From: Opitutia bacterium | GTDB taxonomy: Bacteria; Verrucomicrobiota; Verrucomicrobiia; Opitutales; Opitutaceae | NCBI GenBank assembly: GCA_947474365.1 | Contig: CANJIU010000003.1 | Location: forward strand, 1 to 64,000 | Direction of reading: 5' to 3' | Length of the DNA: 64,000 nt | In this document: piece after piece, positions 1 to 22,946 of the stretch | Layout of the letters: the number at the start of each line of letters is the position of its first letter | Position numbering within the stretch: the stretch's first letter is position 1 | Notes under the pieces: generated by a model | Seen by the model: only the letters and a program-made list of their open reading frames with translations | Database searches by the model: none | What the model was told of the DNA's origin: nothing | Position numbers and translations under genes: made by a program

Positions 1-272
1 CGGGCCGCCAAACCAACGGACCGAATTATAGAACCGGTTTTTGCCCTCATGCCGACGTTTTGACCCCGCATATCACCTTCGCCGCGCGTCGGTTTTCCTC
101 CTTTCTCCTATGAAGAATCGGTCGACTGTCGCTGAGGGACAGGCTCTACGTAGGCGAATGATCGTAAAAACACATAGTTTGCAGTTTTTCACTAGACTCG
201 TGAGGTTTTCTACCTAGTTTACACCCAGAAGAGACCCGTAGTCGTGCTCCGCACCAGAAATCATCCATCACC

Positions 273-2943: not shown

Positions 2944-2987
2944 ATCACCCACAGATTACCCACACATCACCCGCACATCTCCCGCAG
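2944..2987. repeat. 11-bp tandem repeat array A (4 units)
   Basis: Four consecutive 11-bp units read ATCACCCACAG, ATTACCCACAC, ATCACCCGCAC and ATCTCCCGCAG. The period is not a multiple of three, so this is unlikely to be a degenerate coding repeat. Confidence 0.8.
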
Positions 2988-3076
2988 GCGGTCTTTACCA
3001 GCCGGTTGGAGCTGCCAAGAACGGCATCAGCCCGGCCTACCGGATCGGGGCCGTTTGACGCCCGAAGTCGGAAATT

Positions 3077-3105
3077 GTTCAACCTTTGGGTGCCGCTGGT
3101 TGAAC
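3077..3105. repeat. Perfect 8-bp inverted repeat
   Basis: GTTCAACC at 3077-3084 and GGTTGAAC at 3098-3105 are exact reverse complements around a 13-nt loop. There is no T tract, so a simple terminator is unlikely. It lies between the two 11-bp arrays. Confidence 0.6.
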
Positions 3106-3142
3106 GGATCGAAATCCGCGTTGTTTTGCACCCGGGCGCGCC

Positions 3143-3219
3143 GTCTCGGCCCCATGTCGGCTCCGTCTCCGCTCCATCTCGCCTCCATCTCCCGTCCGTC
3201 TCCGGTGGCTCTGGGCGCC
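3143..3219. repeat. 11-bp tandem repeat array B (about 7 degenerate units)
   Basis: Successive 11-mers are GTCTCGGCCCC, ATGTCGGCTCC, GTCTCCGCTCC, ATCTCGCCTCC, ATCTCCCGTCC and GTCTCCGGTGG, then a more degraded unit. The phase is constant and the consensus is close to (G/A)TCTCNGCTCC. The period equals that of array A, but the unit sequence differs. Confidence 0.75.
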
Positions 3220-3268
3220 ATCGGAGACCCGCTCCAACTCCTGGGAAGCTCCGCACTGACCGGTGTTG

Positions 3269-6200: not shown

Positions 6201-6673
6201 GACAGCGGATCGTGGTCGCCGCACCACACCGTGCGCGAACCGCCGGGGCCTTGCTCAATTTCATACTCGACCGGCAGGAATGTCGCTGGGCGATGATGCT
6301 GCGGCCAGTTGAACTCGATGCCGCCGGACGCCCACGGTCCGGCGAGACCGACGAGGGCCGGCTTGATCACCGTCTGGTTGTAAATCAGATCGTAGCCGTT
6401 GGTCTTGTCCTGGATCGCGTGAATCCGGCCGCCAATTTCCGGGAGGACGAGCACGCGCAGAAATTCGTTCTCGATCCAGATGGCCTTCCAACTCCGGTCC
6501 ACCGGTGATTCCGCGATGCGATCCGTGAAGGGGAGGGGATAGACCTTGCCGCTGCTCCCCTGATACACCCGCTGGTCGAGGAACATTGGGTTCTTGTCTG
6601 GCGCCGCCGGCAGATACGTCGGTAACGTGAGCGTGGTGACCTCGACGCGGACTGGGGAGGATGGCGGCATCAT
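3269..6673 (-). CDS. DUF5107 domain protein with long C-terminal TPR superhelix
   Basis: This 1,134-residue protein has no signal peptide and is probably cytoplasmic. Residues about 30-330 look like the DUF5107 domain, a galactose-mutarotase-like beta-sandwich (WKAIWIENEFLRVLVLPEIGGRIHAI, then GGIEFNWPQHHRP). From about residue 510 to the end there are successive TPR-type helical hairpins, for example YYHLGLCLSALGRDDEAYDAF and YYLGNLYYDRRRFPEAIRCW. DUF5107/TPR proteins usually sit beside glycoside hydrolases or sugar transporters, so a role in carbohydrate sensing or processing is inferred; no enzyme activity is established. It starts 40 bp downstream of the stop of a truncated upstream gene on the same strand, which suggests an operon. 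The + strand open frames across it are antisense artefacts of the high GC content. Confidence 0.85.
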   Translation of the reverse strand: MMPPSSPVRVEVTTLTLPTYLPAAPDKNPMFLDQRVYQGSSGKVYPLPFTDRIAESPVDRSWKAIWIENEFLRVLVLPEIGGRIHAIQDKTNGYDLIYNQTVIKPALVGLAGPWASGGIEFNWPQHHRPATFLPVEYEIEQGPGGSRTVWCGDHDPLSRLKGMHGVCLHPGKAYVELRVRAYNRTPLPQTFLWWANVATRVHEAYQSFFPPDVRYVADHARRSMSAYPLATGTYYGVDYGQRGRKGIPPSEVPTQFVPAHARNKSPSSKREPNVPDYAPNDLSFYANIPVPTSYMAMGSRGDFSGGYDYQAEAGIVHLANHHISPGKKQWTWGNHEFGYAWDRNLTDPDARGEFAPYIEIMAGVYTDNQPDFSFLQPGETKSWSQYWYPIQKIGPAQHANLAAAVSLKALGNKIRLGIAVTAAIPGARVRLTVADRPLYSIRCDLLPGVPLVRTIRLPRGRAETDLRLTVTDREGAEIISYQPRTHPPGKVPSPATEPPAPRDLASADELYLTGLHLEQYRHATRCPTAYWREALRRDAGDARCNQALGAWHYRRGEFAQAEAFLRRAIARLTQRNANPADGEAYYHLGLCLSALGRDDEAYDAFYKAVWNQAWQSAGYHALAELDTKKTDWPAAADHLDRSLRLNTDNLRARNLLVIVWRKLGRDDAAAKILAETRALDPLDAWAQHLDGQPLYCDLQTALDLAHDYAHAGLYEEAVGLLEGASAQPADLPDQSWGAAPLVSYTLGWLQEKRGDRRAAQRHFVAGGAAAPDYCFPARLQEIAVLEAVIRARPHDARAPYYLGNLYYDRRRFPEAIRCWEKSAELAPRFSIVWRNLGIGYFNIARDAAKARAAYDRAFLANPTDTRLLFERDQLWKRLGTSPATRLRELEKHSQLVGQRDDLSVEQCALLNQTRRHTEAERLLAGRTFQPWEGGEGGPLGQHVRTQLALGRDALARQDIAGAVGHFERALTAPRTLSEARHLLANQSDVHYWLGVALAGLGRRAEARQHWRNAANFKGDFQGMSVRAFSEMTYYSALSARELGQVARARKLLRDLLNYAQRLQTAEAVVDYFATSLPTMLLFNDDLQYRQETTALFLQAQARLGLGQTTRARILLKKILQRDPSHALAADLMQE

Positions 6674-6712
6674 GGTATTCGTTGCGCTTTTCCAGTTAGA
6701 TTCCGTCTGGCA

Positions 6713-7018
6713 TCAGAGTAGGCGGGTGCGCTCTGCCGTTGAGCTTCGCGGGCGGTAGTAGCGGCTCACTGGATCCTGGACCGCATCTGCGCCGATGTAA
6801 CCGTAGTGATGGCGCAGCAAACGCTCCGGTTGCGCGGGAACGAAGGTCGGCTCACCGAGAAATTCGGCGGGCTGGCGGGGAAACACGAGCTCGCGCGGAA
6901 AGGGCGCGACATCGCCGGGGTCGTGACTGTTCAGCAGCACCCGCAATTGGCCGTCGTTTTCCGCATAGAAATAAATGTCCGCTTCCCAGCCGCGAAAGCT
7001 GATGTAGAGCTTCGGCCC
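6713..7018 (-). pseudogene. C-terminal fragment (about 101 codons) of an unidentified gene, cut at the 7018 junction
   Basis: On the minus strand the frame reads PKLYISFRGWEADIYFYAEN and continues through QLRVLLNSHDPGDVAPFPREL to a TGA at 6713-6715. Its amphipathic, aromatic-rich composition and C-ending codons match real genes of this window. Upstream of about 7018 the same frame turns into arginine/histidine-rich low-complexity protein that is plainly antisense to the giant repeat gene. Only the 3' end of the original gene is therefore present. I do not recognise the family. It precedes the DUF5107 gene by 40 bp on the same strand, and enzymes of carbohydrate metabolism would be typical there. 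It is either a genuine deletion remnant or half of an assembly chimera. Confidence 0.65.
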
Positions 7019-7030
7019 TGGGTGGCGGTG
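7005..7030. other. Abrupt junction between a truncated minus-strand gene and a truncated plus-strand giant gene
   Basis: Left of about 7018 the coding signal is on the minus strand; right of about 7022 it is on the plus strand, beginning inside an MBG-type module (VAVVIALGNLTQGYTGQAVS). Neither gene has its own 5' end here. A G/T-rich stretch (GGTGGCGGTGGTG, 7021-7033) lies at the breakpoint. Confidence 0.7.
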
Positions 7031-8860
7031 GTGATCGCGCTGGGGAACCTGACGCAGGGCTACACCGGACAAGCGGTGTCGCCGGAGTTGAAAACGAGCG
7101 TGGTGGATGTGGGGCTGACGCTCACCTTCAACGGGTCGGCGGTGAAGCCGGTGTTGCCGGGCAGTTACACGGTTTTGGCGGTGCCGAGCGATGGGAACTA
7201 CACGGGCAGTGCGACCGGGACGCTGGTGATCCAGCGGGCCGAGCAGTATGTGACGATCCGGCCGCTGGATTTGAAGGTGCCCCCGAAGTACGCGGGCGGG
7301 CCGGTGGCGGTGGTGGCGGTTTCGAATCAGGGGCTGCCGGTGACGCTGAGCCTGGATGCGGGCAGTGCGGCGAAGTTGAATGCGGCCAACGAATTGGTTG
7401 AGATCGGGCAAACGGGCACGATCACGCTGCGGGCGAACCAGGCCGGGACCGCGGATGTGGTGGCGGCGGAGGAAGTGGTGCTGACGCTGGACGTGGAGAA
7501 GGTGCCGCAAGGGGTGAACTTTGCCCTGCAGGCGGCCGCATTGTACGGGACGCCGCCGATTCCGCTGGAGGCGACGGCGAGTTCGGGCCTGGCGGTGGGC
7601 TTCCGGGTGGTGCGCGGACCGGCGAGTGTGATCGGGAACAATCTGGTGGTGAATGGCGCGGGGTTGGTATGGGTGCAGGCGATACAGGTGGGCGAAGGGG
7701 TCTACAACCCGGCCCCGGTGGTGACGCAGGCCCTGCGGGTGGGCGCGGTGGCGCAAACGGTTCAATTTGCGGCGCTCGGGCGGGTGACGTACGGTGACGC
7801 GCCGGTGAGTCTGGTCGCGACCGCGAGTTCCGGGCTGCCGGTCGGCTACACGGTGGTGCGTGGGCCGGGGGTGGTGAAGGACGGGGTGCTGACGGTGACC
7901 GGGGCGGGGGAAGTGGTGGTGCGGGCGGGGCAGCCCGGCGATGGGAACACGCTGGCGGCGGCGGAGGTGGAGCAGACGTTGGTGGTGGGGACGAAGCCGG
8001 TGACGGTGGCGGTGCGGCCGGCGAGCCGGGGCTACGGCCAGGCGAATCCAATTTTTACCTACGATTACACCGGGCTGGTCCCGGGCGACACGGCGGCGGC
8101 GATTACGGCGCCGAGTGCGGTGACGAGCGCCACGCCGACGAGCGGGCCGGGGGTGTACCCGGTGACGCCGAGCGGGGGCAGTGCCGCGAATTACACGCTG
8201 ATCCTGGTGGAGGGGGTGCTGACGGTGGAGCGGGCGGAGCAGACCTTGACGTTCCCGCCGCTGCCCAATCAGGCGTTGGGCAACGGTCCGTTTACACTGG
8301 GAGCGGTGGCCAGTTCGGGATTGGCGCCGGTGTACAGCATCGTGAGCGGCCCGGCGACGGTGGCGGACAACCAGGTGACGATGAGTGGTGCCGGCGTGGT
8401 GGTGGTAAAGGCGAGCCAGCCGGGCGACGCGAACTACCGACCGGCGGCGGACGTGACGAGCAGCTTTACGGTGGCCAGTACGATTGGGGTGGTGGGCGTG
8501 ACCGCGCAGCAGGCGAGCGGAGCGTACCGGGTCGGGGAGGTGCTGCAGATCCAGGTGAGTTTTTCCGGAGTGGTGAGCGTGACGGGCCTGCCGCAGTTGG
8601 CGTTGAATACGACGCCCGCCCGCAGTGCGGTCTACGAAGCCGGGTCCGGCACGGACACCCTCTCGTTTCGCTACGTGGTGCAAGCGGGGGACACCGCGGC
8701 GTTGGTGGACTACACCGGGGTGAATGCGCTCACGATCACAGGGGCGGCGATCCGCAACGCCACGGGGACGACCAGCGCGGTGTTGAGCCTGCCGGTGCCC
8801 GGTGGTCCGGGTTCGCTGGCGCAGGCGAGGCAGCTGGTGGTGGATACGGCGGGGCCGACG
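7022..8860 (+). repeat. Intragenic super-repeat, copy 1
   Basis: This roughly 600-codon block holds an MBG module, several ATASSGL-type Ig modules, a YGQANPIF-type MBG_2/YDG domain and a domain starting SGAYRVGEVLQIQVSFSGVV. The same modules recur in the same order at 12706-14520. The protein sequence is clearly homologous but diverged, for example LTFPPLPNQALGNGPF against LSFPALPSQALGNAPF. Confidence 0.75.
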
Positions 8861-11800
8861 TTGCTCCGGTTGGGTTCTTCGACGCCGGATGGCAGTTACA
8901 GGGCCGGGGCCGCGATTGCCCTGCGGGCGACGATGAGCGAAGCGGTCCGGGTCGGCGGCACGATGACGGTGACCTTGGATACCGGGGCGATCGTGACCTT
9001 GACGGCAGCGGTGACGGGCGCGCAGCTGAGCGGGACGTACACGGTGCGGCCCGGGGATAACAGCCCGGACCTGACGGTGGTCAGCTACACGCTGGGCACC
9101 GTGACCGACTTGGCGGGCAACGCGGCGGTCGGTGCCTCGCTGCCGGGCGGAGCGGACAACCTGGGTGGATCAAAGGCATTGGTGATTGCCACCCAGGCGC
9201 CCGGGATCCCGGGAGCGCCAGTGGTGACACCGGTGGGCGGCACCATCGTGGCAAACACGTTGAATTTAACGACGACCAACCTGCGGGTGACGGCGAGCAT
9301 CACGGCCGGGTCGGCGAGTGGCGGCAGCGCGAGCTTGCGGCTGGGCACGCAGGTGTTGGCCGGCGTCAGTGTAATTGCCCCGACGGACACCGAAGTCAGT
9401 TTTGATCTGGGGACGACGACCGCCAATGCCCTCCAGGCTGCCGTGCCGGTGGGCGGCCCCCTCACCGTCGTCCTTCGCGACGCCGCGGGCAACGAATCCC
9501 CCGCCAGCCCTGCGACCACCCTCACCGCCGACTACCTCGCTCCCTCCCTCTCCGTCACCGCCGACCGCGTCGCTCTCGTCGGCGGCTCGGCGCCAATTTC
9601 CTTTGTGTTCAGCAAGCCCGTGACCGGTTTCAGCACGGCTGGCATCACGGTCACCGGTGGTTCGTTGTCGGGGCTGAGCGGGATAGGCGCGACCTACACT
9701 GCGACGTTTACGCCGGACCCGGGACCCGGAGGGAATGCGACGATTGCGGTCGGCGCCGGTGCTGGCATGGACGCGTCCGGCAATCCGAGCGGTGCGAGTC
9801 TACCAGTAATTCTAAAAACAGATCCCGCGGCGCCGGTGGTCGTCGTCAGCGTGACTGCAACCACCCCAGATGGGGCTTACCGGGCGGGAGCGGAGATTAC
9901 GATTGAAGTGACGCTTTCAAATGTGGTGACAGTGAGCGGCACTCCGGTGCTGGCGTTGGACTTCTTGCCTCCGCGCGCGGCGACCTATGTGGGTGGCTCC
10001 GGTACACGGGTGCTGAAATTCCGCTATGTCGTGCAACCGGGCGACCGCGCGGATGACCTCGACTATGCGACGACGGACGCGTTGAGCCTAAACGGGGGGG
10101 CGGTGCTGAACCTTTCGGGTAGTCCGGCCAATCTGACTCTGCCGCCGCGCAGTGGTGCGGGTTCTTTGGCGGTGAACAAGAATCTGCGGATCGATACGAT
10201 AGCGCCTCAGGTCAAGGTGACCAGCGACCGCTTGTTGCTCAAGGCCGGGCAGACGGCACAGTTGACCTTCACTCTTACGGAAACCTCGGCGGATTTTGCG
10301 GTCGGGGATGTGACCGTGACCAACGGCAGCTTGAGCGGTTTTGCGGGCAGTGGGGTCAGTTATACGGCGACCTTCACTCCGGCGTCGGACGTGAGCGCCG
10401 TGGCGTTGGTTCAGGTGGCGGCCGGAACGTTTACCGATGCAGCGGGCAACGCCAATCTTGCGGCGGACCTTAGTTTGGGGAACGACGTGCGCTTTGAATG
10501 GGCACGTACGTGGGGTGGAAACGGACGCGATGAAGCGCTGGCGACGGTGGTCGATGCGGATGGCAACGTCTATTCGGCTGGGCGCTTCACGGGTGTGGTG
10601 GATTTCGATCCCGGTGCCGGGGTGGTAGCGCGTACTTCCGCGGGTGATGCGGACGGCTTTGTGACCAAGTTCGATCGGCAGGGTAATTTTGTCTGGGTGC
10701 GCACGTGGGGTGGCACTGGCACCGACGAAGTGAGGGCACTGGCCCTGGATCCCGCTGGGGGTATTTGTCTGGCCGGCTCCTTTAGTGGAACGATGAATCT
10801 GGACCCGGGCGCGACGAGCGCGAGCGTGACCGCGAACGGTTTGAACGATATCTTCATCGTTAAGCTGAATGGTGCTGGTCAATACCAGTGGGGCGTGGGG
10901 CTGGGTGGCGCCGGTGCCGACGAAGCGCGGGCCGTCGCAGTGGATGCCGTCGGTTCGGTCTATGTCGGCGGCGTCTTCAGTGGGCAGGTGGACTTCGATC
11001 CCAGCGTGGGCACGCGGACGTTGGGAGCCGCGGGTGGCAACGATGGATTTGTACTCAAGCTAGGTCCTACGGGAGGATTTGTTTGGGCGTCGGCGTTGGG
11101 TGGAAATGGGGCGGATCAGGTCAATGCTCTGGCGGTCAATGCGACCGGCGAATTGTACGTGGCCGGCGCGTTTAGCGGCGCGGTGGATTTTAACCCCGGT
11201 CCTGACTTGGAGTTGCTGACAGCAGTGGGCGGCACCGACGGGTTTGTCGCCAAGTTCGACGGTAACAACGTCCTGCTTTGGGCGCATTCGATGGGTGGTG
11301 CCAGCGATGATAGCGTGAATGCCGTGGCGGTGGGTCGCCAGGGGGAGGTTACGCTGGCGGGCACTTTCCAAGGCGCCGTAGATTTCGATCCCGGTGTCGG
11401 GCAACGGTTGCTAACCGCCGCGGGTGCCACCGATGGTTTTGTGGTGCGGCTGGACCGGGACGGAAGGCACGTCTGGAGCCAGATGGTGGGTGGCCAGGGG
11501 ATCGACGGGGTTTACTCGCTGGCGCTGGATGAGCAGGGAGCGGCGTATGTGGGAGGGTCATTCTACGGCACGGTGGATTTGGATCCGGGCGTCGGCGTGC
11601 GGACCTTTGTAGCGATGGAAGCCGGAGAAGACGCGTTTGTGCTGAAGCTCAACGCGACGGGCGAACATGTGTGGTCGAAGACCATGGGTGGAGTAGCGGA
11701 TGAGCGGGTGCAGGGGTTGGCGGTGGACCTCGCGGGTGCCGTGTATGCGGCCGGCTACTTTGGCGGGGCGGCGGATCTCGATCCCGGTGCGGGTACGGCG

Positions 11801-14800
11801 CCGGTGGTGTCGGCGGGGGGAACGGACGCGTACGTGCTGAAGTTGACGACGGCGGGAGCGATTATTTTGGATACGCAGGCGCCGGGGGTGTCGGCGGTGA
11901 CGAGGCAGAGCCCGCAGGCCGGGGCGGTGGTGAACCGCAGTGTGGTGTACCGGGTGAAGTTTAGCCGCGAGGTGAGCGGGGTGGACGCATCGGACTTTGG
12001 GTTGACGACCGGAGGCGGGCTGAGCGGGAGCATCGCCGCGGTGACGCCGATGAGTGGGACGGACTACTTGGTGACGGTGCAAAATTTGACTGGCAGCGGC
12101 ACGCTGCGGCTGGATTTGAAGGCAGCTGGCACGGGGATCGTGGACCAGTCGGGCAATGCGCTGGCGGAGGGTTATACTTCGGGGGAAACTTACACGGTGA
12201 CCGCGGCAGCTCCCCGTCCGGTGATCGATAGCGCGGTGAGTGCCGAGGGCACGTACGGCAGCGCCTTCAGTTATGCGATTTCGGTGAGTGGTACGCCTTT
12301 CAGCTATACGGCGACCGGTTTGCCGGCCGGTCTGAGTGTGAGCAATTCGTCAGGCTTGGTGAGTGGTACGCCGCGCGAGGCGGGGGTGTTTGCGGTGAGC
12401 TTGGGTGCTTCCAATCTTCTTGGCGTGGGTGGTGGTGTGGTCGTGCTGAAAATCGCCAAAGCCCCGCTGACCGTGACGCCTGTGGATGTCATTCGGCCGT
12501 ATGGTCAGTCCAACCCCGTTTTTGCGGTGACTTATCAGGGTTTTGCGGGCGACGACACGGCGGCGGTATTGGGAATTGCGCCGACGGTGACGACCAAGGC
12601 GGGCACGCGCTCGGCGGCCGAGATTTATCCCTTGGTGGCGGCGGGCGGTGTGTCGGACAAATACGCCTTCAACTATGGAGTCGGGACGCTGACAGTGACG
12701 AAGGTGCCGGTGGTGATTACCCTGGGTGGTTTGACGCAAAATTATTCCGGCCAGGGTTTGAGTCCGGGGGTGACGACGAGTGTGGCGGATGTGGAGCTGA
12801 CGCTGACCTACAACGGATCGACGGTTAAACCGATTGTGCCCGGCATCTATGCCGTGGTGGTGGTACCGAGCGATCCGAACTACACCGGCAGCGTGACTGG
12901 CACTTTCGTGATTCAGCGGGCGGAGCAGTCGATCGTCCTTGCCCCTCTGCCTGTCACTCCACTCAAGGACCTCACGTCTGGATTGGTGATTGAGGCCTCG
13001 GCAAGTTCGAACCTGCCGGTAAGCCTCGCGCTAATGCCGGGCAGTGCGGCGAGTCTATCGGGCGACAACAAGCTGACGGGAATCGCCTCCACGGGCTCGG
13101 TGATCTTGCGAGCCACGCAAGCGGGCAATGTGAATTATCTGCCGGCGGACGACGTGGTCATGACGCTCGACGTGACGAAAAAGAACCAGTTCATCGATTT
13201 TCCGGAAATTGGTACGATCTCGGCTCGCCAGACCACCGTGGATTTACGGGCGACGGCGTCGTCCGGACTCGACGTAGGATTCGAAGTGGTGAGCGGACCG
13301 GCGACGATCGACGGGGCCAAGCTTACTTTTAGTGGTGTGGGCAAAGTAGTGCTCAAGGCGATCCAGGCGGGTGACACGGTGTTTAATGCGGCCTTGCCGG
13401 TGACCCGCGTCGTGACCCGCGCACTGGCGGAGCAGCGGCTCACCTTCCCGTTGGTCGCGGCGCTGACGTATGGCGACGAACCGATTGTGTTGGCGGCGAG
13501 CTCCGATGCAGGGCTGCCGGTGAGCTATTCCGTCGTGCGCGGGGCGGCGAAAGTAGAGGGCAGTCGGCTGACGATCACCGGAGCCGGGGAAGTTGTGGTG
13601 CGGGCAAGCCAGGCGGGCAGTGCGACGGTCGCGGCTGCGCCTTCCTTGGAGCAAAATATCGTGGTGGCCCAACGTAATCTTCAAGTGACCGCGCAGTCGT
13701 CGTCGCGGTCGTTCGGTGCACCCAACCCTTTGTTCGCAGTCACGTACCAGGGTTTTGTCAACGGTGACACGGTGGCGCAACTGGACACGGTTCCGGTCGT
13801 GGGAACCGACGCCAACGAAAATTCGGCTCCGGGCACCTATGTCTTGATGCCGGGCGGCGGTCGTTCCTCCAATTATCGTTTCGGGTTTACGCCGGGCACT
13901 TTGACGATTGTGCCGGCGGCGCAGACGTTGTCCTTTCCTGCATTACCCTCCCAAGCGCTCGGCAATGCTCCCTTCTCTCTGGGTGCGGTTGCGAGCTCCG
14001 GACTTTTGCCGGAATACTCCATCGTCAGAGGACCGGCGACCGTGGTGGGCAACGTTGTGACTTTGAACGCTGCTGGGATCGTCTTCGTCCAGGCGAGCCA
14101 GCCGGGAAATGCCAACTTTCTGCCGGCGACTCCGGTGGAGCGGTCGTTTGTCGTGTCCAACTCCATTGAGATTGTCAGCCTGACCTCGGGCATGCGGGAT
14201 GGAGCGTATCGGGCGGGGCAGACGATTACGATTGAGGTGAGCTTCTCCGGTGTGGTGGTCGTCACTGGGTCCCCTGCGTTGAGGTTGAATGTGGGCAATG
14301 GTGGCGTGGCTCGACAGACCGCTGGCTCCGGCTCCAGCACGCTGAGCTTCACTTATGTGGTTCAGACCGGTGAAAACGTGAGTAACCTTGATGTTGTCGA
14401 TTTTGTGCCGGGCGCCGGAACGATTAGTAGCGAGACGGGAACGACGGCTCCCTCTTTGGTTCTGCCGGTGGCCGGTGCCGAGGGCTCGCTCAGTGCAGTT
14501 CGGCACCTGCGCATTGATACCACCCCGCCGGCCGCTCCCACTCTTTCGGTGGCGAGCCCAACCAATCTCGTGCGTCCGCCACTCGGCGGCTTTGCCGAGG
14601 CGGGGGCGGTGGTCGAAGTTTACGAAGGAACCGTGTTGCTGGCGCGTGTGACGGCGGGGGCCAATGGCGCTTGGTCGGCGACTGGCGCGTCCGATCTGGT
14701 CGCGGGCACCCATGTCTTGACAGCCCGCGCGATCGATGCCGCGGGGAATATCAGTTTGGATACGGAGCCCCTTTCGGTCATTGTGGACACTTCGGTGCCC

Positions 14801-17800
14801 GCGGCTCCGGTCGTGCTGACAGCAGGTGCGACCAATGTCGTCCGCCCGGTGATTCTTGGCTCCGGTACAGTGGGGTTGTCGGTGCGAATTTCGGACGGCG
14901 CTGACGTCCTGGGTACAGTGGTCGTGGGGACCGATGGCACTTGGCAGTTAACGCTGGGGCGCGACTTGGCGGTGGGAGTGCACCGCCTGACGGCGGTCGC
15001 CACCAACGCTGCGGGCACGCGCAGCCCGGTCTCGGCCGAAACCTTGCTTACGGTCGACTTGATCGCGCCCGCCGCCCCGGAGATCTCCACCCGGGGCGTG
15101 TTGGCTGGCACGAGTGCCACGTTGCGGGGCACCGCTGAACCGGAGAGTACGGTGAGCGTGTTTGATGGGGCGGTTTTATTGGGCAGCGTGAAGACAGCTG
15201 CCACGGGTGATTGGGTGTTTCGGCCCACAGTGTTGATGGCCTCCGGGCTTCGTTCGATTTCGGCGACGGCGCGGGATGCGGCGGGCAACCTTAGTCTGAC
15301 GTCAGTGCCGGTCGTGCTTGAAATCGACTCGTATGCGCCCGATGCGCCCACCATCAGCACGAAGGGTTGGTTCAATACGTCCAAGCCAGTCATTGCTGGC
15401 AAAGCCGAGCCGTTGTCGACGGTGCGGGTCTTTAACGGTCTCAGTTTTCTCGGTACCGTGGTGGCTTCTTTGGCCGGAGACTGGGCCCTGACTCCGGCGA
15501 ATGCGTTGGCGGATGGCTCGCATCGTATTAACGCCCTGGCGGTTGATCCGGCGGGCAACGTGAGCAGTTTCTCGGCGGAGAACATCATCTCCATCGACGC
15601 GACGGCGCCGTTTGCTCCGGTCTTTGAGACTGCGGTGTTTGCTCAAGCCACGCCCGTGGTGCGCGGGACCTCCGAGCCTGGCAGCACGGTGCAGCTGAGC
15701 ATCGCCGGAATCCTGATCGGCACTGGCGTGGCTGACAGCGGTGGCTTCTGGCAGTTCAAACTTTTCGTCGCCCTCGCCGAGGGGGTGAATTTGGTTTCAG
15801 GGAGCGCGATCGATTCAGCCGGCAATCGGAGTCCGGCTTCCGCCCCGGTGGCGATCACATTCAACCCGGCCGCCCCGACGGTCCCGGCTTTTGCTGCCTC
15901 GTTCCTCGTCGTGAACACGACCACGCCGCTGATTGAGGGCACAGGCGCTGCGGGCAATACGATTCTGCTCTCTGATGGGAGTGCCCCCTTGGCCGAAGTG
16001 TTGGTGGGTGCCAATGGCAAGTGGAGCTACCGATCGCTCGTTCCTATGAGTGAGGGCGTCCATCTGCTGACAGCCCGGGCGCGTAGTGAAGGCTTGACCA
16101 GTGCGTCCTCCGGGACCTTGGAACTTCAGATCGATACCCGTCCTCCGTCCGTGCCGACGATCTCGGTACAAAGCCCGAGTCGCCGCGTTACGCCCACCCT
16201 GACCGGCTTCGGTGAAGCGGGCGCGACGGTAAAGATTTTTGACGGCGCCACGTCTTTCGGCGCCACGACCGCATTGTCCAACGGGGCGTGGACCTTTACC
16301 CCGCAGAAGGCTTTCACCGAAGGTGAACATCGTCTCACGGTGCAGGCGATAGATGTCGTGGGAAATGAAAGCGCCCGTTCGGCTGAGACCCTTTTGGTGA
16401 TCGATTTGACGGCCCCGGAGGCCCCCGTACCCGCTGCCACCACGGTGTTCAACTCCGCCCAACCGTCGCTTTTCGGCAAGGGCGAGGCGTTTGCCAAGAT
16501 TCAACTCTCCGAATCCGGCGTGGTCGTGGGTGAAGCGTTTGCTGACAGCTTTGGTGATTGGCTCCTCCGCCCATTGGGCGTGCTCTCGGAAGGTACGCAT
16601 GTGCTCTCCTATGCGGCGACCGATTTGGCGGGGAACGTCGGGCCGCCGGTCACGCGGACGATTCTGATCGACCTGACTGCACCGATCCGACCCGCCCTCA
16701 TCGCGCCTGGCGATCTGCGTACTCTGACGCCGACGTTGCGCGGTACGGCCGAGGCGGGCAGTGCGGTCAGTATTTCCGTCGGCAATGTGGTGATCGGCTC
16801 CGGGGTCGCCCTCGTCGATGGCACGTGGAGCGTGACGGTCGGGCAAGGACTGGTCGAGGGCGAGCAAACCGCCACGGTCGCGGCTGTTGATGCGGCGGGC
16901 AATCGCAGCGTCGTCTCTGTGGGCGTGAAGCTGGTGGTTGACCTGACGCCGCCGGCCGCGCCGCAAATCGTCGTGAGCGGTACCTTTAACGTACCGCGTC
17001 CGACCATCTCAGGCACTGCGGAAGCGCTCACCACCGTGCGCGTGCAGGAAGGGAACACGGTGCTCGGCACGGCGCTGACCGACGAGGCCGGGCAATGGAG
17101 CTTGGCGCCGGTCGCGCCGTTCAATCGCGGGCTTCATGCCTTGACCGCGTTCGCCTTGGATGCGGCGGGCAATGAAAGCCCGGCCAGCGCGCCCGCCTCG
17201 TTGACAATCGTCTTGGCGGGGCCGTCGCCTCCGGTGATCACCACTGTCGGCCCCTTCAATCTTGTGCGGCCTGTCATCGCCGGCACCGCTGAAACGAACA
17301 CTCGGGTGAGCCTTTTTGAGGGGGCAACCCTGCTGGGCACCGCCGCAACCACCGTGGGTGGCACCTGGTCGGTTTCGCTCGAAGCGGCGTTGGCCGAGGG
17401 CGTACACGGCTTGACGGCCGTCGCGACGGACTTGGGGGACAACAGTGTGGGGCAGCCATCTGCACTGGTGGCGCTCGCGATTGACCTCACGCCGCCGGCT
17501 CTCCCGGTGATCGCACCCATCGCTGCCACCGTAAAAACGCGGCCCGTGATCGCCGGCACGGCGGAAGCGGCCGCAACAGTTGTCCTGCAGGACGGCGCGA
17601 CGGTGATTGCTCGCATCAAAGTCGGCGGGAACGGTTCGTGGAGTTTCACCCCGGAAACGGCCCTCGCGGAGGGGACACACTTGCTCACCGCGATGACGCT
17701 GGACCCTGCCGGCAACGCCAGTCCGATTTCGGCAGTCGTGCCGCTCATCATCGATACGATCGCGCCTCCGGCGGCGACGTTTCGCGCGGTGCCGAGCCCA

Positions 17801-20800
17801 ACCAAGATTGTGCCGACCCAATTTGCTGGCACGGCTGAAGCCAACGCGACCGTCAAGATCTCAAACGGGACCCAATTGCTCGGCACGACCACGGCCAATG
17901 CGGCGGGCGAATGGAGTCTGACGCTTGGGACGAGTTGGATCGATGGTTCCTACACCCTGAAGGCGACGGCCACTGATGCGGCTGGAAACACCGGACCGGC
18001 CGGTCTGGTGACCTTTGTGGTTGATGCCGCCCCTCCCTCGTTGCCGACGGTGGAACCACTGGTGACGACCTCTCCGACACCCATCCTCCGCGGTACGTAC
18101 GATTCCGCCGACACAGCGGTTCTCACTGTGAACGTGGCGGGTAAAACCTACTCCAGTGCGACGGGCGCCGTCGTACTGATCCCCGCCGAGGCGCGTTGGC
18201 AACTGGCGGTAGCGCTGGTGGACTCCTTGCGTGAAGGCACCTATCCGGTGACGGTGGTTGCGCTTGATCTGGCGGGCAACACTGCGACGGACACCTCGGA
18301 CGACGAGCTCGTGGTGGGCTTGAATAAGTCAGCGACGACCGCGAACACGCTGCCGCAGCCGACCTCCGCCACGGCCTTGCAGATTCGATTGACCAGCACC
18401 GCGACCATCACCCGCGATTTGGCGAACATCTTCACCGATCCGTTGGGTCGGATCCTGCGATTCTATCTTTTGGAACAGAAAAACGTGGTGGCGACGCTGA
18501 CCGGTAACCAATTGCGTTTGGTTTTCCCGAGCGATTTGAGCAGCCTCGCGTCGGTCAAGATCCGGGTAAACTTCGACCCGGCCAATCCGACGAGTGGCCC
18601 GACGTATGCGTTGAACTTCGTGATGGATGCCAATGATAACGGCATCGCTGATTCGCTCGAGGCCGCCCTGGGTGATGCCAACGGCGACGGCCAACCCGAT
18701 GTCTCCCAAACCGGCGTCGCGACCTTTGTTGCTCCCTCGACCGGAGGCGTCTCGGGCAACGGCTCCGGGGCCGGCGTGATGTCGATCGTTGTGGGCGATC
18801 GCAATCCGGGTGACGTACGGGCCGACCGCAATGGCGTGGTCGTCGATCCCCAGGGCAGCATCAAGAATGTGAGCGCCTTGTCGGTTTCAGAATTTTCCTC
18901 AACTCCTGTCACATGGACCCCGGTATCGCCGGTGATTCAATTCGAAATCGCCAATGCGAAGCTCCAAGCGGATGGCGCGGTGGTGGTCATTGTTTCCCTG
19001 CCGACCAATGCCAATCCGCCAAAGCATATCTACAAGTTCGGTTACGAATTCGCGAACGCAACGCAGAAGACTTTCTTTCTCTTTGACTGGGATGGCCGTA
19101 CCGGTGGCCAATTGATCGATACGAATAACGACGGTAAACCCGACGTCGTGCGACTGATTTATCGCGACGGCGAGCGCGGTGACGACGACCTGCTCGCCAA
19201 CGGCATCATCGTAGATCCGATCGTGATGGGTGCGGATCTCGATGTTGCACCAAAACCGGTGTTTACCATCGCCAGTGGTGGCTACCGGGGGGCACAGCCG
19301 ACCTTGGCCGGGACTGCCCAGGCCCTGTCGACCGTCAAGATCTACGATGGCTTGGGCTATCTGGGCGCGACCGTGACCACGGTGGCCGGAACGTGGAGTT
19401 TCCTTCCGCCGACGGCGTTGAGCGAGGGTCTCCATACTTTCAATGCCACCGCCACCCTGCCCCCGGGCCAGGCCAGCGAAGCGGCGTCTGTGCAATTGCT
19501 CCTCGACAGCCTCGCGCCGGCGGCCCCGGTGTTACTCGATGGCACGATCGTGGGCGCGAGTACGCGCATCCGCGGGACGGCTGAAGCCAGCGCTACCGTC
19601 ACAGTTTACTCGGGCGGCGTTGAACTGGGCAAGGTTGTCGCGCTGGCAAACGGCACGTGGAGCTATGTGGCGCCGTTCACCTTTGGCGTCTTTACGCTGA
19701 CAGCGACCGCGGTGGATGCCGTGGGCAACGTGAGTCCGCTCTCGAGTGCCCTGGTGATTCGTTCGGTGAACGAAGCGCCGGGCGCGTCGGCGAGCACGAT
19801 GGCGACGATTGCGGAAGACGTGCCGGACGGGAGCAATACCGGTACGCTGGTGTCGGCGCTGGTGGCGAACTTTACGGATGTGGAAAGTGGGTCGGTCAAG
19901 GGGCTGGCGGTGGCGGGCGTGGATACGACCAATGGCAGGTGGTATTATTCGACGGATGCGGGAACGACCTGGCTGACGCTGAGTGGCGTCAGCACGAGCG
20001 CGGCGCGACTGCTCAAGGGCGACGACGCGAACTACAAGGTGCGGTTTGTGCCCAATCTGAATTTCAACGGGACGGCGACGATGACCTACCGGGCGTGGGA
20101 TCAAACGAGTGGGACTGCAGGGGCTACGGCGGACGTCACGACGAACGGCGGCAGCACGGCCTACTCAAGCGCGACGGCCACGGCCACGATCACCGTGACC
20201 GCGGTGAACGACGCGCCGACGTTGGCGACGCCGGCCGGGTTGAGCTACCTGGATACGGTGGCGATGGATACGTTTGCGAACGGAACGGGCGCCCTGATGG
20301 GAGCGGATGTGGATGAGGGGACAACGCTGACGTACGGAATCGCGAGCGTGACGGCCGTGGGTGGTATTGCGACCCGAGTCGGCACGTATGGCACCTTGGC
20401 CGTGACGACTGCGACTGGAGCCTACACGTTTACGCCGAACTCGGCGGTGATCAACGCGCTGACCGTGAGCACCAGCGAGACCTTTACAGTGATGGTGAGC
20501 GACGGACTGGAGATGACGACGGCAACCTTGGCCGTGAACCTGACGGCGGTGAACGACGCGCCGACCTTGACGACCGTAAACACGTTGAGCGGCGGAACGG
20601 AAAACGTCCCGTTGACGATCAGCTACGCGGTGCTGGCTGCGGCGGCGGACGAGGCGGACGTGGAGGGCGACCTGTTGAGTTTCCGGATTGAAGCGGTGAG
20701 TTCGGGCAGGTTGGAAAAGGGCAGCGACGGATCGTGGACGGTGGTGACTCCGGGCACGACGTTGGTGGGTGCAGGGGAAACGCTGCGCTGGACACCGGCG

Positions 20801-22939
20801 CTGAATGCGAACGGAACGTTGAATGCGTTTACGATTAAGGCGTGGGACGGGGCTCTGGCGTCGACGAGCGCGGTGCAGGTGAAAGTGGCGGTCGCGGCCG
20901 TTAGCACACCACCGGTGCCTCCTATCGTGCCGCCTACAGTTCCACCTACGGTACCGCCTACGGTGCCACCGACGGTCGTGACGGTGGAGGTTACTCTCGG
21001 TGGCCTTAACCAAGTTTTTGACAGCGAGGCGAAGCCTGTGTCGGTGGTAACAAATCCCGTCGGGCTGGTCGTCGCGGTCACCTACGACGGCTCAACGGTC
21101 GCCCCCGCCGCCGTCGGCGTTTATTCAGTCGTCGCGGTGGTCACGTCCACCGGCTACACCGGTCGTGCCGCCGGTACGTTAACAATTGCGGCCCCGCCGC
21201 CGCCGCCGGATCTCTCGGTGGCCCAGAGCATCGCCTTTGCGCCAACAACTAGGGCGGCGGCTGGCACGGCGCTCACCCTCAGGGCGACGGCTTCGAGTGG
21301 TTTGCTGGTGACGCTGAGCCTCGTAAGCGGACCGGCTAAACTGACCGGTGACGTGCTCACCTTGTTGGACATCGGCACCGTGGTGGTGCGGGCTTCCCAG
21401 GCCGGCAACGCTGCCTACAAAGCGGTGACGCTCGACCGCACGCTGCAAGTCACCGCTGCGATCCAGCAAGGCTACTTTGGTCCGGTAACGAATTCTACTG
21501 GCGTAGGGCGCGCGGGGGATCTGGCGCTGACGTTGGCGCCTGGCGGCGCGAGCGCAAAGTTGCTGCTCGTCCTGCCGGATTCCGGTGTGCAGGGCGTGTT
21601 CGATGTTACCCCTGACCTCCTTGGAAGCTTTACGGTGGAATTACCCGTCTCGAACCCGGTGGTCGCGGTGGCACGGCCCAGCGACCCCGCGCGCGACGAA
21701 TCGACGTTCATTTCGCGGGCGGCAAATTTGAATTCGGTGGCCCAGCTGAGCGGCACCGTGCGCGACGGACGGTTCAGTGGCACGATCGAGGCGCTTGGTT
21801 TGTCGTTCAACATCGTGGTCTTGCCCTCCGAAGGTGCGGCGGCGGCCGTCGCTGGCTTTTACCGCGCTGATATTTTGGGTGCGTCGGGCGGTACGGTTTA
21901 TAGCGCGGTCGGTTCCCAGGGGCAGGTCCTTGTACTTGTCACTACGGCGGAATTTACGGCGGGCGCGGTGACGGTGGTCGACGCGCAGTTGGGCTTCTCC
22001 GCCGCACTCGCGACCCCGACCGGGGCGACGACGGTGCTTGGTGTTCTCGATTTGGGCAATGGTGCGATCTCCGGCTCCCTGCGTCTGGCTGGTGGAGTCG
22101 AGACAACGTTTGCGGGCCTCGGGGAGCAGGTGGCGGCAGCTGTTCGCCTGGTCAATCTGTCGTCGCGCGCCCGGGTTGGGGCCGGCGAGCAGACTCTGAT
22201 CAGCGGCTTCATCATTGGCGGGGCCTCACCGCAGTCGGTTTTGATTCGCGGCATCGGCCCCGCGCTGACGGATTTCGGGGTCAACGGCGCACTGGCGAGT
22301 CCCCGCTTGCGGTTGTTCCGTGACGGAACGGTGTTGGCGGAAAACACCGGTTGGTCAAAATCCGGAGTCGGGGTGACTGAACTTTCCGCTGCGTTTGCCC
22401 GATTGGGTGCCTTTGCCCTGCCGGTCAATTCCTCGGATGCGGCCTTGCTGGTCACGCTACCCCCCGGGGCATACACCCTCCATGTGGACGGGGGTGACGG
22501 TGTCGCTTTGGCGGAAATTTACGATGCGGCTGCGGGCGATCAGGCTCGGCTTCTCAATGTTTCAACCCGTGGATATGTGGGCGTTGGTTCCAATGCCATG
22601 TTCGGTGGCTTCGTAGTGGCGGGTAACTTACCCCAGCGTGTTTTGGTGCGTGCCATCGGCCCCGGGCTGAAGGGCTTCGGCGTCGATGGAGTCTTGGCGG
22701 ACCCGCGGCTCACCGTTTACCGGGGGCCTGCCGCGGTGGCAGAAAATGACAACTGGGGCGGCCTGGATGCTGCCGCCGTGCTCGCTGCTCAACTCGCTGT
22801 CGGCGCCTTCCCGCTGCCGGCAGGCAGCAAGGACGCGGTGTTGTTGCTCACCTTGGCGCCCGGGGCTTATACGGCTCAAGTCACCGGTGCGGGTGTGGGT
22901 GAGGGCGTCGCTTTGATTGAAATCTATCAACTTCCTTAA
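7022..22939 (+). CDS. Giant multidomain repeat surface protein, 5'-truncated
   Basis: About 5,305 residues are visible. The frame is open back to 6806, but those 72 codons are antisense to another gene and give no signal peptide, so the true N-terminus is missing. Modules in order: MBG/Ig-like block (7022-8480); further Ig-like domains; seven SBBP-type propeller repeats (10495-11870); a putative-Ig domain and MBG domain; a second copy of the first block (12706-14520); fourteen consecutive Ig-like domains of about 90 residues (14527-18310); a thrombospondin-3-like Asp-rich calcium motif (18625-18715, DANDNGIADS and DANGDGQPD); a choice-of-anchor-U-like domain (DGERGDDDL, to about 19235); two more Ig-like domains; cadherin/VCBS-like domains (19770-20915); a PPTV linker; another MBG domain; an unassigned domain (21470-22130); and a duplicated C-terminal module. 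The likely role is a very large adhesin or matrix protein, exported if intact. The next gene begins within 10 bp of the stop. Confidence 0.75.
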   Translation: MAVVIALGNLTQGYTGQAVSPELKTSVVDVGLTLTFNGSAVKPVLPGSYTVLAVPSDGNYTGSATGTLVIQRAEQYVTIRPLDLKVPPKYAGGPVAVVAVSNQGLPVTLSLDAGSAAKLNAANELVEIGQTGTITLRANQAGTADVVAAEEVVLTLDVEKVPQGVNFALQAAALYGTPPIPLEATASSGLAVGFRVVRGPASVIGNNLVVNGAGLVWVQAIQVGEGVYNPAPVVTQALRVGAVAQTVQFAALGRVTYGDAPVSLVATASSGLPVGYTVVRGPGVVKDGVLTVTGAGEVVVRAGQPGDGNTLAAAEVEQTLVVGTKPVTVAVRPASRGYGQANPIFTYDYTGLVPGDTAAAITAPSAVTSATPTSGPGVYPVTPSGGSAANYTLILVEGVLTVERAEQTLTFPPLPNQALGNGPFTLGAVASSGLAPVYSIVSGPATVADNQVTMSGAGVVVVKASQPGDANYRPAADVTSSFTVASTIGVVGVTAQQASGAYRVGEVLQIQVSFSGVVSVTGLPQLALNTTPARSAVYEAGSGTDTLSFRYVVQAGDTAALVDYTGVNALTITGAAIRNATGTTSAVLSLPVPGGPGSLAQARQLVVDTAGPTLLRLGSSTPDGSYRAGAAIALRATMSEAVRVGGTMTVTLDTGAIVTLTAAVTGAQLSGTYTVRPGDNSPDLTVVSYTLGTVTDLAGNAAVGASLPGGADNLGGSKALVIATQAPGIPGAPVVTPVGGTIVANTLNLTTTNLRVTASITAGSASGGSASLRLGTQVLAGVSVIAPTDTEVSFDLGTTTANALQAAVPVGGPLTVVLRDAAGNESPASPATTLTADYLAPSLSVTADRVALVGGSAPISFVFSKPVTGFSTAGITVTGGSLSGLSGIGATYTATFTPDPGPGGNATIAVGAGAGMDASGNPSGASLPVILKTDPAAPVVVVSVTATTPDGAYRAGAEITIEVTLSNVVTVSGTPVLALDFLPPRAATYVGGSGTRVLKFRYVVQPGDRADDLDYATTDALSLNGGAVLNLSGSPANLTLPPRSGAGSLAVNKNLRIDTIAPQVKVTSDRLLLKAGQTAQLTFTLTETSADFAVGDVTVTNGSLSGFAGSGVSYTATFTPASDVSAVALVQVAAGTFTDAAGNANLAADLSLGNDVRFEWARTWGGNGRDEALATVVDADGNVYSAGRFTGVVDFDPGAGVVARTSAGDADGFVTKFDRQGNFVWVRTWGGTGTDEVRALALDPAGGICLAGSFSGTMNLDPGATSASVTANGLNDIFIVKLNGAGQYQWGVGLGGAGADEARAVAVDAVGSVYVGGVFSGQVDFDPSVGTRTLGAAGGNDGFVLKLGPTGGFVWASALGGNGADQVNALAVNATGELYVAGAFSGAVDFNPGPDLELLTAVGGTDGFVAKFDGNNVLLWAHSMGGASDDSVNAVAVGRQGEVTLAGTFQGAVDFDPGVGQRLLTAAGATDGFVVRLDRDGRHVWSQMVGGQGIDGVYSLALDEQGAAYVGGSFYGTVDLDPGVGVRTFVAMEAGEDAFVLKLNATGEHVWSKTMGGVADERVQGLAVDLAGAVYAAGYFGGAADLDPGAGTAPVVSAGGTDAYVLKLTTAGAIILDTQAPGVSAVTRQSPQAGAVVNRSVVYRVKFSREVSGVDASDFGLTTGGGLSGSIAAVTPMSGTDYLVTVQNLTGSGTLRLDLKAAGTGIVDQSGNALAEGYTSGETYTVTAAAPRPVIDSAVSAEGTYGSAFSYAISVSGTPFSYTATGLPAGLSVSNSSGLVSGTPREAGVFAVSLGASNLLGVGGGVVVLKIAKAPLTVTPVDVIRPYGQSNPVFAVTYQGFAGDDTAAVLGIAPTVTTKAGTRSAAEIYPLVAAGGVSDKYAFNYGVGTLTVTKVPVVITLGGLTQNYSGQGLSPGVTTSVADVELTLTYNGSTVKPIVPGIYAVVVVPSDPNYTGSVTGTFVIQRAEQSIVLAPLPVTPLKDLTSGLVIEASASSNLPVSLALMPGSAASLSGDNKLTGIASTGSVILRATQAGNVNYLPADDVVMTLDVTKKNQFIDFPEIGTISARQTTVDLRATASSGLDVGFEVVSGPATIDGAKLTFSGVGKVVLKAIQAGDTVFNAALPVTRVVTRALAEQRLTFPLVAALTYGDEPIVLAASSDAGLPVSYSVVRGAAKVEGSRLTITGAGEVVVRASQAGSATVAAAPSLEQNIVVAQRNLQVTAQSSSRSFGAPNPLFAVTYQGFVNGDTVAQLDTVPVVGTDANENSAPGTYVLMPGGGRSSNYRFGFTPGTLTIVPAAQTLSFPALPSQALGNAPFSLGAVASSGLLPEYSIVRGPATVVGNVVTLNAAGIVFVQASQPGNANFLPATPVERSFVVSNSIEIVSLTSGMRDGAYRAGQTITIEVSFSGVVVVTGSPALRLNVGNGGVARQTAGSGSSTLSFTYVVQTGENVSNLDVVDFVPGAGTISSETGTTAPSLVLPVAGAEGSLSAVRHLRIDTTPPAAPTLSVASPTNLVRPPLGGFAEAGAVVEVYEGTVLLARVTAGANGAWSATGASDLVAGTHVLTARAIDAAGNISLDTEPLSVIVDTSVPAAPVVLTAGATNVVRPVILGSGTVGLSVRISDGADVLGTVVVGTDGTWQLTLGRDLAVGVHRLTAVATNAAGTRSPVSAETLLTVDLIAPAAPEISTRGVLAGTSATLRGTAEPESTVSVFDGAVLLGSVKTAATGDWVFRPTVLMASGLRSISATARDAAGNLSLTSVPVVLEIDSYAPDAPTISTKGWFNTSKPVIAGKAEPLSTVRVFNGLSFLGTVVASLAGDWALTPANALADGSHRINALAVDPAGNVSSFSAENIISIDATAPFAPVFETAVFAQATPVVRGTSEPGSTVQLSIAGILIGTGVADSGGFWQFKLFVALAEGVNLVSGSAIDSAGNRSPASAPVAITFNPAAPTVPAFAASFLVVNTTTPLIEGTGAAGNTILLSDGSAPLAEVLVGANGKWSYRSLVPMSEGVHLLTARARSEGLTSASSGTLELQIDTRPPSVPTISVQSPSRRVTPTLTGFGEAGATVKIFDGATSFGATTALSNGAWTFTPQKAFTEGEHRLTVQAIDVVGNESARSAETLLVIDLTAPEAPVPAATTVFNSAQPSLFGKGEAFAKIQLSESGVVVGEAFADSFGDWLLRPLGVLSEGTHVLSYAATDLAGNVGPPVTRTILIDLTAPIRPALIAPGDLRTLTPTLRGTAEAGSAVSISVGNVVIGSGVALVDGTWSVTVGQGLVEGEQTATVAAVDAAGNRSVVSVGVKLVVDLTPPAAPQIVVSGTFNVPRPTISGTAEALTTVRVQEGNTVLGTALTDEAGQWSLAPVAPFNRGLHALTAFALDAAGNESPASAPASLTIVLAGPSPPVITTVGPFNLVRPVIAGTAETNTRVSLFEGATLLGTAATTVGGTWSVSLEAALAEGVHGLTAVATDLGDNSVGQPSALVALAIDLTPPALPVIAPIAATVKTRPVIAGTAEAAATVVLQDGATVIARIKVGGNGSWSFTPETALAEGTHLLTAMTLDPAGNASPISAVVPLIIDTIAPPAATFRAVPSPTKIVPTQFAGTAEANATVKISNGTQLLGTTTANAAGEWSLTLGTSWIDGSYTLKATATDAAGNTGPAGLVTFVVDAAPPSLPTVEPLVTTSPTPILRGTYDSADTAVLTVNVAGKTYSSATGAVVLIPAEARWQLAVALVDSLREGTYPVTVVALDLAGNTATDTSDDELVVGLNKSATTANTLPQPTSATALQIRLTSTATITRDLANIFTDPLGRILRFYLLEQKNVVATLTGNQLRLVFPSDLSSLASVKIRVNFDPANPTSGPTYALNFVMDANDNGIADSLEAALGDANGDGQPDVSQTGVATFVAPSTGGVSGNGSGAGVMSIVVGDRNPGDVRADRNGVVVDPQGSIKNVSALSVSEFSSTPVTWTPVSPVIQFEIANAKLQADGAVVVIVSLPTNANPPKHIYKFGYEFANATQKTFFLFDWDGRTGGQLIDTNNDGKPDVVRLIYRDGERGDDDLLANGIIVDPIVMGADLDVAPKPVFTIASGGYRGAQPTLAGTAQALSTVKIYDGLGYLGATVTTVAGTWSFLPPTALSEGLHTFNATATLPPGQASEAASVQLLLDSLAPAAPVLLDGTIVGASTRIRGTAEASATVTVYSGGVELGKVVALANGTWSYVAPFTFGVFTLTATAVDAVGNVSPLSSALVIRSVNEAPGASASTMATIAEDVPDGSNTGTLVSALVANFTDVESGSVKGLAVAGVDTTNGRWYYSTDAGTTWLTLSGVSTSAARLLKGDDANYKVRFVPNLNFNGTATMTYRAWDQTSGTAGATADVTTNGGSTAYSSATATATITVTAVNDAPTLATPAGLSYLDTVAMDTFANGTGALMGADVDEGTTLTYGIASVTAVGGIATRVGTYGTLAVTTATGAYTFTPNSAVINALTVSTSETFTVMVSDGLEMTTATLAVNLTAVNDAPTLTTVNTLSGGTENVPLTISYAVLAAAADEADVEGDLLSFRIEAVSSGRLEKGSDGSWTVVTPGTTLVGAGETLRWTPALNANGTLNAFTIKAWDGALASTSAVQVKVAVAAVSTPPVPPIVPPTVPPTVPPTVPPTVVTVEVTLGGLNQVFDSEAKPVSVVTNPVGLVVAVTYDGSTVAPAAVGVYSVVAVVTSTGYTGRAAGTLTIAAPPPPPDLSVAQSIAFAPTTRAAAGTALTLRATASSGLLVTLSLVSGPAKLTGDVLTLLDIGTVVVRASQAGNAAYKAVTLDRTLQVTAAIQQGYFGPVTNSTGVGRAGDLALTLAPGGASAKLLLVLPDSGVQGVFDVTPDLLGSFTVELPVSNPVVAVARPSDPARDESTFISRAANLNSVAQLSGTVRDGRFSGTIEALGLSFNIVVLPSEGAAAAVAGFYRADILGASGGTVYSAVGSQGQVLVLVTTAEFTAGAVTVVDAQLGFSAALATPTGATTVLGVLDLGNGAISGSLRLAGGVETTFAGLGEQVAAAVRLVNLSSRARVGAGEQTLISGFIIGGASPQSVLIRGIGPALTDFGVNGALASPRLRLFRDGTVLAENTGWSKSGVGVTELSAAFARLGAFALPVNSSDAALLVTLPPGAYTLHVDGGDGVALAEIYDAAAGDQARLLNVSTRGYVGVGSNAMFGGFVVAGNLPQRVLVRAIGPGLKGFGVDGVLADPRLTVYRGPAAVAENDNWGGLDAAAVLAAQLAVGAFPLPAGSKDAVLLLTLAPGAYTAQVTGAGVGEGVALIEIYQLP
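10495..11870 (+). repeat. Seven SBBP-type beta-propeller repeats inside the giant protein
   Basis: Seven units of about 65 residues each contain a GG-x-x-x-D/E turn (WGGNGRDE, WGGTGTDE, LGGAGADE, LGGNGADQ, MGGASDDS, VGGQGIDG, MGGVADER). Most also have a VDFDPG-like strand and a DGFVxKL strand. Seven units are what a closed seven-bladed propeller needs. Confidence 0.85.
12706..14520 (+). repeat. Intragenic super-repeat, copy 2
   Basis: This second copy of the 7022-8860 block begins at VVITLGGLTQNYSGQGLS, compared with VVIALGNLTQGYTGQAVS in copy 1. Here an additional MBG-type domain (PYGQSNPVFAVTYQGF) precedes the block, at 12460-12700. Copy 1 lacks its equivalent because the sequence is cut at the 7018 junction. 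Confidence 0.75.
14527..18310 (+). repeat. Array of 14 consecutive bacterial Ig-like domains
   Basis: Fourteen units of about 265-275 bp each open with P-x-x-P followed by an I-x-GTAE-x-x-x-x-V core (GTAEPESTVSVFDG, GTAEALTTVRVQEG, GTAEAAATVVLQDG). Each closes with a G-H-L-T-A-x-A-x-D-A-A-G-N-type strand. Two more units lie at about 19250-19770. The pattern fits the stalk-forming Big_6-like Ig modules of giant adhesins. Confidence 0.8.
20907..20976 (+). repeat. Proline/threonine/valine linker repeat
   Basis: This in-frame 12-bp-period repeat encodes PPTVPPTVPPTVPPTV, an extended linker between the cadherin-like domains and the third MBG domain of the giant protein. Confidence 0.8.
22135..22936 (+). 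repeat. C-terminal module of the giant protein (two half-repeats)
   Basis: About 265 residues are built of two homologous halves, each starting LxNxSxRxxVGxG and running through LIRGIGPALTDFGVNGAL or LVRAIGPGLKGFGVDGVL to AEIYDA or IEIYQLP. The same module ends the next gene (24730-25517). The terminal position in two unrelated repeat proteins suggests a sorting or anchoring role. Confidence 0.75.
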
Positions 22940-22946
22940 AACCCCT

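Follow-up and report, generated by a model that had tools for sequence, protein, structure and literature searches.

Layout of the locus and its setting in the assembly

The window analysed here, that is, the whole stretch of 64,000 nucleotides, comprises bases 1-64000 of a 169,669-base contig (C3) from the source assembly G000. This assembly amounts to 10.35 Mb distributed over 275 contigs, with listed estimates of 97.64% completeness and 7.44% contamination. The window contains no N bases and an Rfam scan of positions 1-8000 gave nothing reaching gathering scores. Approximately 7.0 kb from the left end of the contig, a minus-strand frame homologous to the C-terminal half of LicD-like proteins meets a plus-strand frame that codes for a very long repeat-rich protein. 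The first-pass annotation had described this place as the fusion of two half-genes at one point, a description that is correct for the assembled sequence. The features on which the analysis is based are the following:

1..153, strand not assigned: multi-copy repeat at the left end of the contig, with copies at the extreme ends of C249, C110 and C68
3269..6673, minus strand: intact gene for a DUF5107-TPR protein of 1134 aa, lying 39 bases beyond the LicD stop
6716..7030, minus strand: C-terminal 105 codons of a LicD-like (PF04991-type) gene, with its stop codon at 6713-6715 and its N-terminal half absent
6806..7021, plus strand: first 72 codons of a 5,377-aa open frame, complementary to the LicD tail and likely spurious
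7022..7030, strand not assigned: junction GTGGCGGTG, read as H-R-H in the LicD frame and as V-A-V in the MBG frame
7022..22939, plus strand: 3′ part of a gene for a giant repeat-rich surface-type protein, whose own start appears to be absent
7034..7240, plus strand: first MBG_3 domain (PF18887) of the giant gene, residues 5-73
12467..12694, plus strand: MBG_2 domain (PF18676) just before the second MBG_3 domain (56.2 bits, cut-off 25)
12716..12922, plus strand: second MBG_3 copy, as matched by Pfam
22917..25520, plus strand: gene for an Ig-domain protein, downstream of the giant gene

The repeat with which the contig begins is about 120-150 bp long. Close to the right end it carries a hairpin-like CTGTC-GCTGAGG-GACAG, and further matches to it exist in contigs C55 and C34. 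The sequence that follows it differs among the copies examined (window, C249, C110 and C68), and in C68 a leader-bearing protein frame begins directly after the repeat. It is possibly a REP-like element or the end of a mobile element, in which several contigs end. The genome is also rich in giant genes of the Ig/MBG/Big repeat type: a single 624-aa query gave 162 matches, among which open frames reach up to 6,960 codons, and such genes are found on contigs C3, C23, C25, C34, C68, C131, C168, C195 and others.

A LicD remnant and a probably truncated giant gene

The minus-strand frame contains the peptide YFYAENDGQLRVLLN, which had already been picked out as protein-like and proved to be homologous to the tail of LicD-like proteins. 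No stop codons interrupt this tail. Homology to intact LicD-like proteins extends from ~6731 to 7030-7033 and then ends; the limit at ~7018 proposed earlier has to be moved to ~7030, where the LicD homology overlaps the MBG homology by 9 bases. A search of 142 genomes found matches to the tail in five genomes besides G000, with 59-63% identity and E values from 9e-38 to 3e-33. The protein collection added 67 LicD relatives among 82 candidates (44-72% identity, the closest at 71-72%), of which 63 have PF04991 marked and 60 measure 201-242 aa; intact members are 216 aa long in G066, 212 in G069, 209 in G062 and 216 in P0015. When the window frame was aligned with 12 relatives, the conserved positions of the tail turned out to be kept and similarity stopped abruptly upstream of R-H-P-G-P-K-L-Y. 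The LicD protein of G066, used as a query against G000, found a sole match, corresponding to its residues 110-206 and located at 6743-7033, and the N-terminal half was not found elsewhere in G000 at E up to 0.1 with all 13 candidates scored.

Profile scores agree with this picture. The full-length G066 protein reaches 43.4 bits against PF04991 (cut-off 22.6), and the stretch responsible for this match, residues 54-113, falls in the N-terminal half, whereas the 98-aa tail of the window scores 15.7 bits (profile positions 176-227), under the same cut-off. Compared with the LicD family (PF04991, in particular the subgroup of ~201-242 aa from the genus and family of the window), the window keeps the tail RH.GPKLY...W.AD.YF...PFP but is without the N-terminal half that bears the GTLLG..R and HD.D.DF motifs. 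These motifs, which have a catalytic role, are absent in the window and were not found in the rest of G000. At the level of the assembled sequence, the loss of the LicD start is demonstrated, and the remnant reads as a fragment of a family member and not as a working member. The association of LicD with the neighbouring DUF5107 gene is not a conserved one, because a LicD gene was near none of the 80 DUF5107 loci retained from the 593 found. With the LicD head, the sequence context for transcription upstream of the DUF5107 gene would have gone as well, including any promoter located upstream of LicD.

On the plus strand, homology to MBG/Big-repeat proteins starts at ~7022 and no stops are found in the 5,305 codons that follow. 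The domains MBG_3, MBG_2, Big_12, Big_13, Big_6 and cadherin-like occur in series. The first-pass annotation had the coding sequence begin here in mid-domain; the position stands, but the first MBG_3 domain is essentially complete, covering positions 3-71 of the 72 of its profile. The same annotation had also pointed to a further copy of the module from 12706 onward, preceded by an extra domain, and indeed the second MBG_3 (from ~12707) follows an MBG_2. This order, MBG_2 and then MBG_3 at 12467-12922, is the arrangement that would be expected upstream of the junction. An MBG_2 above the Pfam cut-off directly precedes six of the eight other MBG_3 copies (copy 2 of the window, one copy each in G003, G012 and G025, and two in G007). 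As for the other two, the contig of G026 starts inside the preceding MBG_2 (15.4 bits, below cut-off), and copy 3 of the window is preceded by a proline-threonine linker with no MBG_2. Before the junction copy, there is no Pfam match in the interval 6782-7021.

The orthologue on contig C333 of G003 is collinear with residues 55-4258 of the giant protein (~4,200 residues) at 55% identity. However, the orthologue contigs of G003, G007 (C32) and G025 start only within the 5′ part of the gene, at residues 55, 805 and 801, respectively, so that no intact orthologous head was found. Another contig of G007, C121, does contain a head, which consists of a leader-like start followed by Ig, Big_12, He_PIG, MBG_2 and MBG_3 domains. 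It was considered as the 5′ half of the orthologue and rejected, because its identity to the gene on C32 of the same genome (37-44%) identifies it as a paralogue. The heads of G007:C121 and G012:C68 are therefore used only as a model for domain order and leader. Looking for intact versions of both half-genes in relatives, as had been proposed, was successful for LicD in several genomes and yielded nothing but paralogue heads for the giant gene. In both G007:C121 and G012:C68, the giant MBG gene follows immediately after a further large repeat gene of the same strand, with almost no gap in G007, which suggests co-transcription of surface-type proteins.

Searches of G000 with the 624-aa head of G007:C121 recovered only the internal repeats of the giant gene and weaker matches to repeat domains (150 of 222 candidates scored). 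The best of them, one of these internal repeats, reached 146 bits with 44% identity over residues 240-502, and at E 1e-40 only G007, G012 and the internal repeat of G000 passed among 27 genomes of the genus. The gene located upstream of the G007 head has many homologues in G000, largely through its C-terminal region, and none of the seven such regions read by eye has a giant head beside it. In the protein collection, the best relative of the giant protein (P0178, 68.5%) has an alignment that starts as late as residue 169 of the fused frame.

By its domain series the protein belongs with the MBG/Big-repeat giant surface proteins, while the N-terminal export leader of such proteins is missing as judged by hydrophobicity only. 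Compared with its giant MBG/Big-repeat counterparts within the genus (G003:C333, G007:C121 and G012:C68), it has a collinear domain order but is without a leader-like stretch and without an MBG_2 before the first MBG_3. From the lack of a leader-like stretch and of a good start, the missing MBG_2 and the existence of a long-headed paralogue, we infer that the giant gene lost its start and that it once had a leader and more domains upstream. The earlier claim that neither gene retains its 5′ end is accordingly of unequal standing, established for LicD and a matter of inference for the giant gene. Beyond the giant gene, the right arm looks native, because in three genomes the giant gene has a relative of the downstream Ig-domain gene as its neighbour: on the same strand in G025 (50-54% identity) and G007 (42-43%), on the opposite one in G003 (46%). 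Further to the right, at 27471-28591, a cytidylyltransferase-like gene, which we take to be NadD-like, shares 4 bases with an RsfS gene. The pair is an ordinary one of the core genome and ties the right arm to the chromosome.

The long frame starting at 6806

Nothing interrupts the plus-strand frame from 6806 to 22939, which would encode 5377 aa from a GTG; GTG and ATG codons stand in frame at 6806 and 6809. These features are what could be said for an intact gene in use, with a giant protein whose true start is 6806 or a point just past the junction. Against that reading, which we find scarcely credible, a conserved coding tail lies antisense to the first 72 codons. In all five LicD relatives examined, the codon-aligned antisense phase over the LicD tail contains no stops, so that the openness of the frame from 6806 needs no explanation; the window has two stops in that phase, at 6719 and 6740, and each of them falls to the left of 6806. 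The 20 bases in front of 6806 and of 6809 show no Shine-Dalgarno-like motif. The best 15-residue hydrophobicity mean within the first 120 residues is 1.37, compared with 2.05 and 2.26 in the paralogue heads, which is in line, by this measure only, with the previous remark that the giant protein has no signal peptide. Residues 1-36 have no homologues at E < 1e-3 among the best 120 of 261 proteins; nine alignments in that set begin at residues 37-62, with 27-41% identity, and look like extensions of the MBG matches. It would take a similar stretch of the imagination to suppose that the event made a live chimeric gene, producing a cytoplasmic repeat protein of >5,300 residues whose start codon and first 72 residues come from LicD antisense. 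The 5,377-residue gene, as software would draw it, is most likely not a true gene, and the advice of the first-pass annotation not to accept it holds.

The practical consequence is that an automatic gene call of 5,377 aa from 6806 would misplace the start, lead to the annotation of a giant surface protein lacking a leader, and overlook the LicD pseudogene on the minus strand. A scar or chimera with two broken genes is in itself ordinary, and the value of the case lies in this annotation warning.

Origin of the junction

The LicD homology (to 7030) and the MBG homology (from 7022) share the 9 bases GTGGCGGTG, a possible microhomology. Among the 67 LicD relatives, the corresponding residues are HRH in 36, RH in 52 and the last H in 66; the next residue outward is Ser in 63 of them and His in the window. 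On the MBG side, the eight other MBG_3 copies show V-P-V (three), A-P-V (two) or other residues (three). The pentamer CGGTG is common to the four LicD genes whose DNA was printed and to the second MBG copy, and is absent in the orthologues of G003 and G025. The identity between the parental sequences at the junction was probably 5 to 9 bases; it could be less, the parents being unseen. When breakpoints between the two arms were simulated (n=400,000), a shared run of at least 9 bases arose at a frequency of 7e-5, one of at least 5 at 0.0076, and a match at 8 of 9 bases at 0.0015. Among the matches listed, neither another sequence with this junction nor a copy of either gene from the same species was present.

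The possibility that repeats misled the assembly, as the first-pass annotation had put forward, was rejected in that form, because the own-genome searches given next found no repeat of at least k-mer length at the join. By BLAST, the left flank has no second copy in its own genome (all 23 candidates scored), and the right flank matches only itself and a 32-base stretch at ~7570-7601 (40 of 89 candidates scored). Exact matches of at least 18 bases touching 6701-7400 numbered zero in the 464 kb of own sequence scanned. The composition of the left arm (rms z 1.34) lies at the edge of the range of the genome itself, which is 0.83-1.35 in 40 chunks, one of the 40 being as extreme; 18 chunks from nine same-family loci gave 1.14-2.46, and the giant gene, with 2.39 and 1.73, is outside its own genome's range.

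The best explanation, which we hold to be on balance probable, is that the join is the scar of a real genomic deletion, predicted to have occurred between short matching sequences and to have removed the starts of both genes. The lost heads of LicD and of the giant gene would point at each other across the junction, and removing one intervening segment would take both, an orientation that fits a simple deletion. Deletion is favoured because neither head was found elsewhere in the 97.6%-complete, 10.3-Mb assembly (for the giant head, with 150 of 222 candidates scored). Given that neither remnant shows stops or decay, the event would be recent, or else an artefact, which intact remnants fit just as well. 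Several observations speak against deletion, namely, that the junction lies only 7 kb from a contig end in a 275-contig assembly with 7.4% contamination, that the head-bearing gene in G007 and its counterpart in G012 are paralogues and not orthologues, that V-P-V is found rather than V-A-V in three of the eight other MBG_3 copies, with G003 and G025 lacking CGGTG, that the listed matches include no second example of the junction and no copy of either gene from the same species, and that LicD is near none of the 80 DUF5107 loci.

A junction that exists in no genome is the main competitor, tentative but to be taken seriously: a library chimera or an erroneous join in the assembly graph would have put a 7-kb piece with LicD and DUF5107 onto the giant-gene contig. 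Besides the proximity of the contig end, the fragmentation and the contamination, the region's poor assembly speaks in its favour, as seen from the orthologue contigs of G003, G007 and G025, which start inside the 5′ part of the gene, and so may the left arm's composition at the edge of the range of its own genome (only one of 40 own chunks being as extreme). Such an origin is countered by the lack of an assembler-length repeat at the junction, by the behaviour of the contigs of G000, which end in the 120-150-bp repeat instead of being joined through it, and by the failure to find either orphaned head in the bin. A short match at the join is likewise not expected from random joining, although amplification chimeras can use short matches too. 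The same junction would also result from a real inversion or translocation after which both heads persist in the genome with other partners. This we think improbable, since neither head was found in the 10.3-Mb assembly, even if unbinned contigs could contain them; in favour of such a rearrangement, no LicD gene was noticed by eye in the open-frame lists surrounding the giant genes of relatives, so that the two genes need not once have been close together. If the deletion scar favoured here is real, a single event likely disabled a gene for a putative surface-modifying enzyme and a gene for a surface protein together, and both are now most likely non-functional, LicD without its N-terminal half and the giant protein presumably without a Sec leader. 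It would also provide a well-delimited case showing how long repeat genes are lost.

Two known systems can be compared with the junction. Chimeric contigs are described as common in short-read metagenome assemblies, their frequency being a further point for an artefact; in one benchmark, SPAdes gave 2.63 per genome and megahit 22.15 (PMC11261854), and the assembler of the present sequence may be neither. The window resembles such chimeras in the abrupt switch between unrelated arms near a contig end, and differs from them in having no assembler-length repeat at the switch. The other comparison is with microhomology-associated (illegitimate) deletion scars of bacterial chromosomes, exemplified by spontaneous rearrangements in Salmonella, for which it is reported that long microhomology at the junction separated true events from ligation chimeras, that 12 of 15 tested deletions were confirmed and that the deduced microhomology cut-off for deletions was 8 bp (PMC3411829). 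Here, the parents are unseen and the junction is one of assembled sequence. As in the Salmonella deletion scars, unrelated sequences are joined at a few, maybe shared, bases, with no repeat of assembler length at the join.
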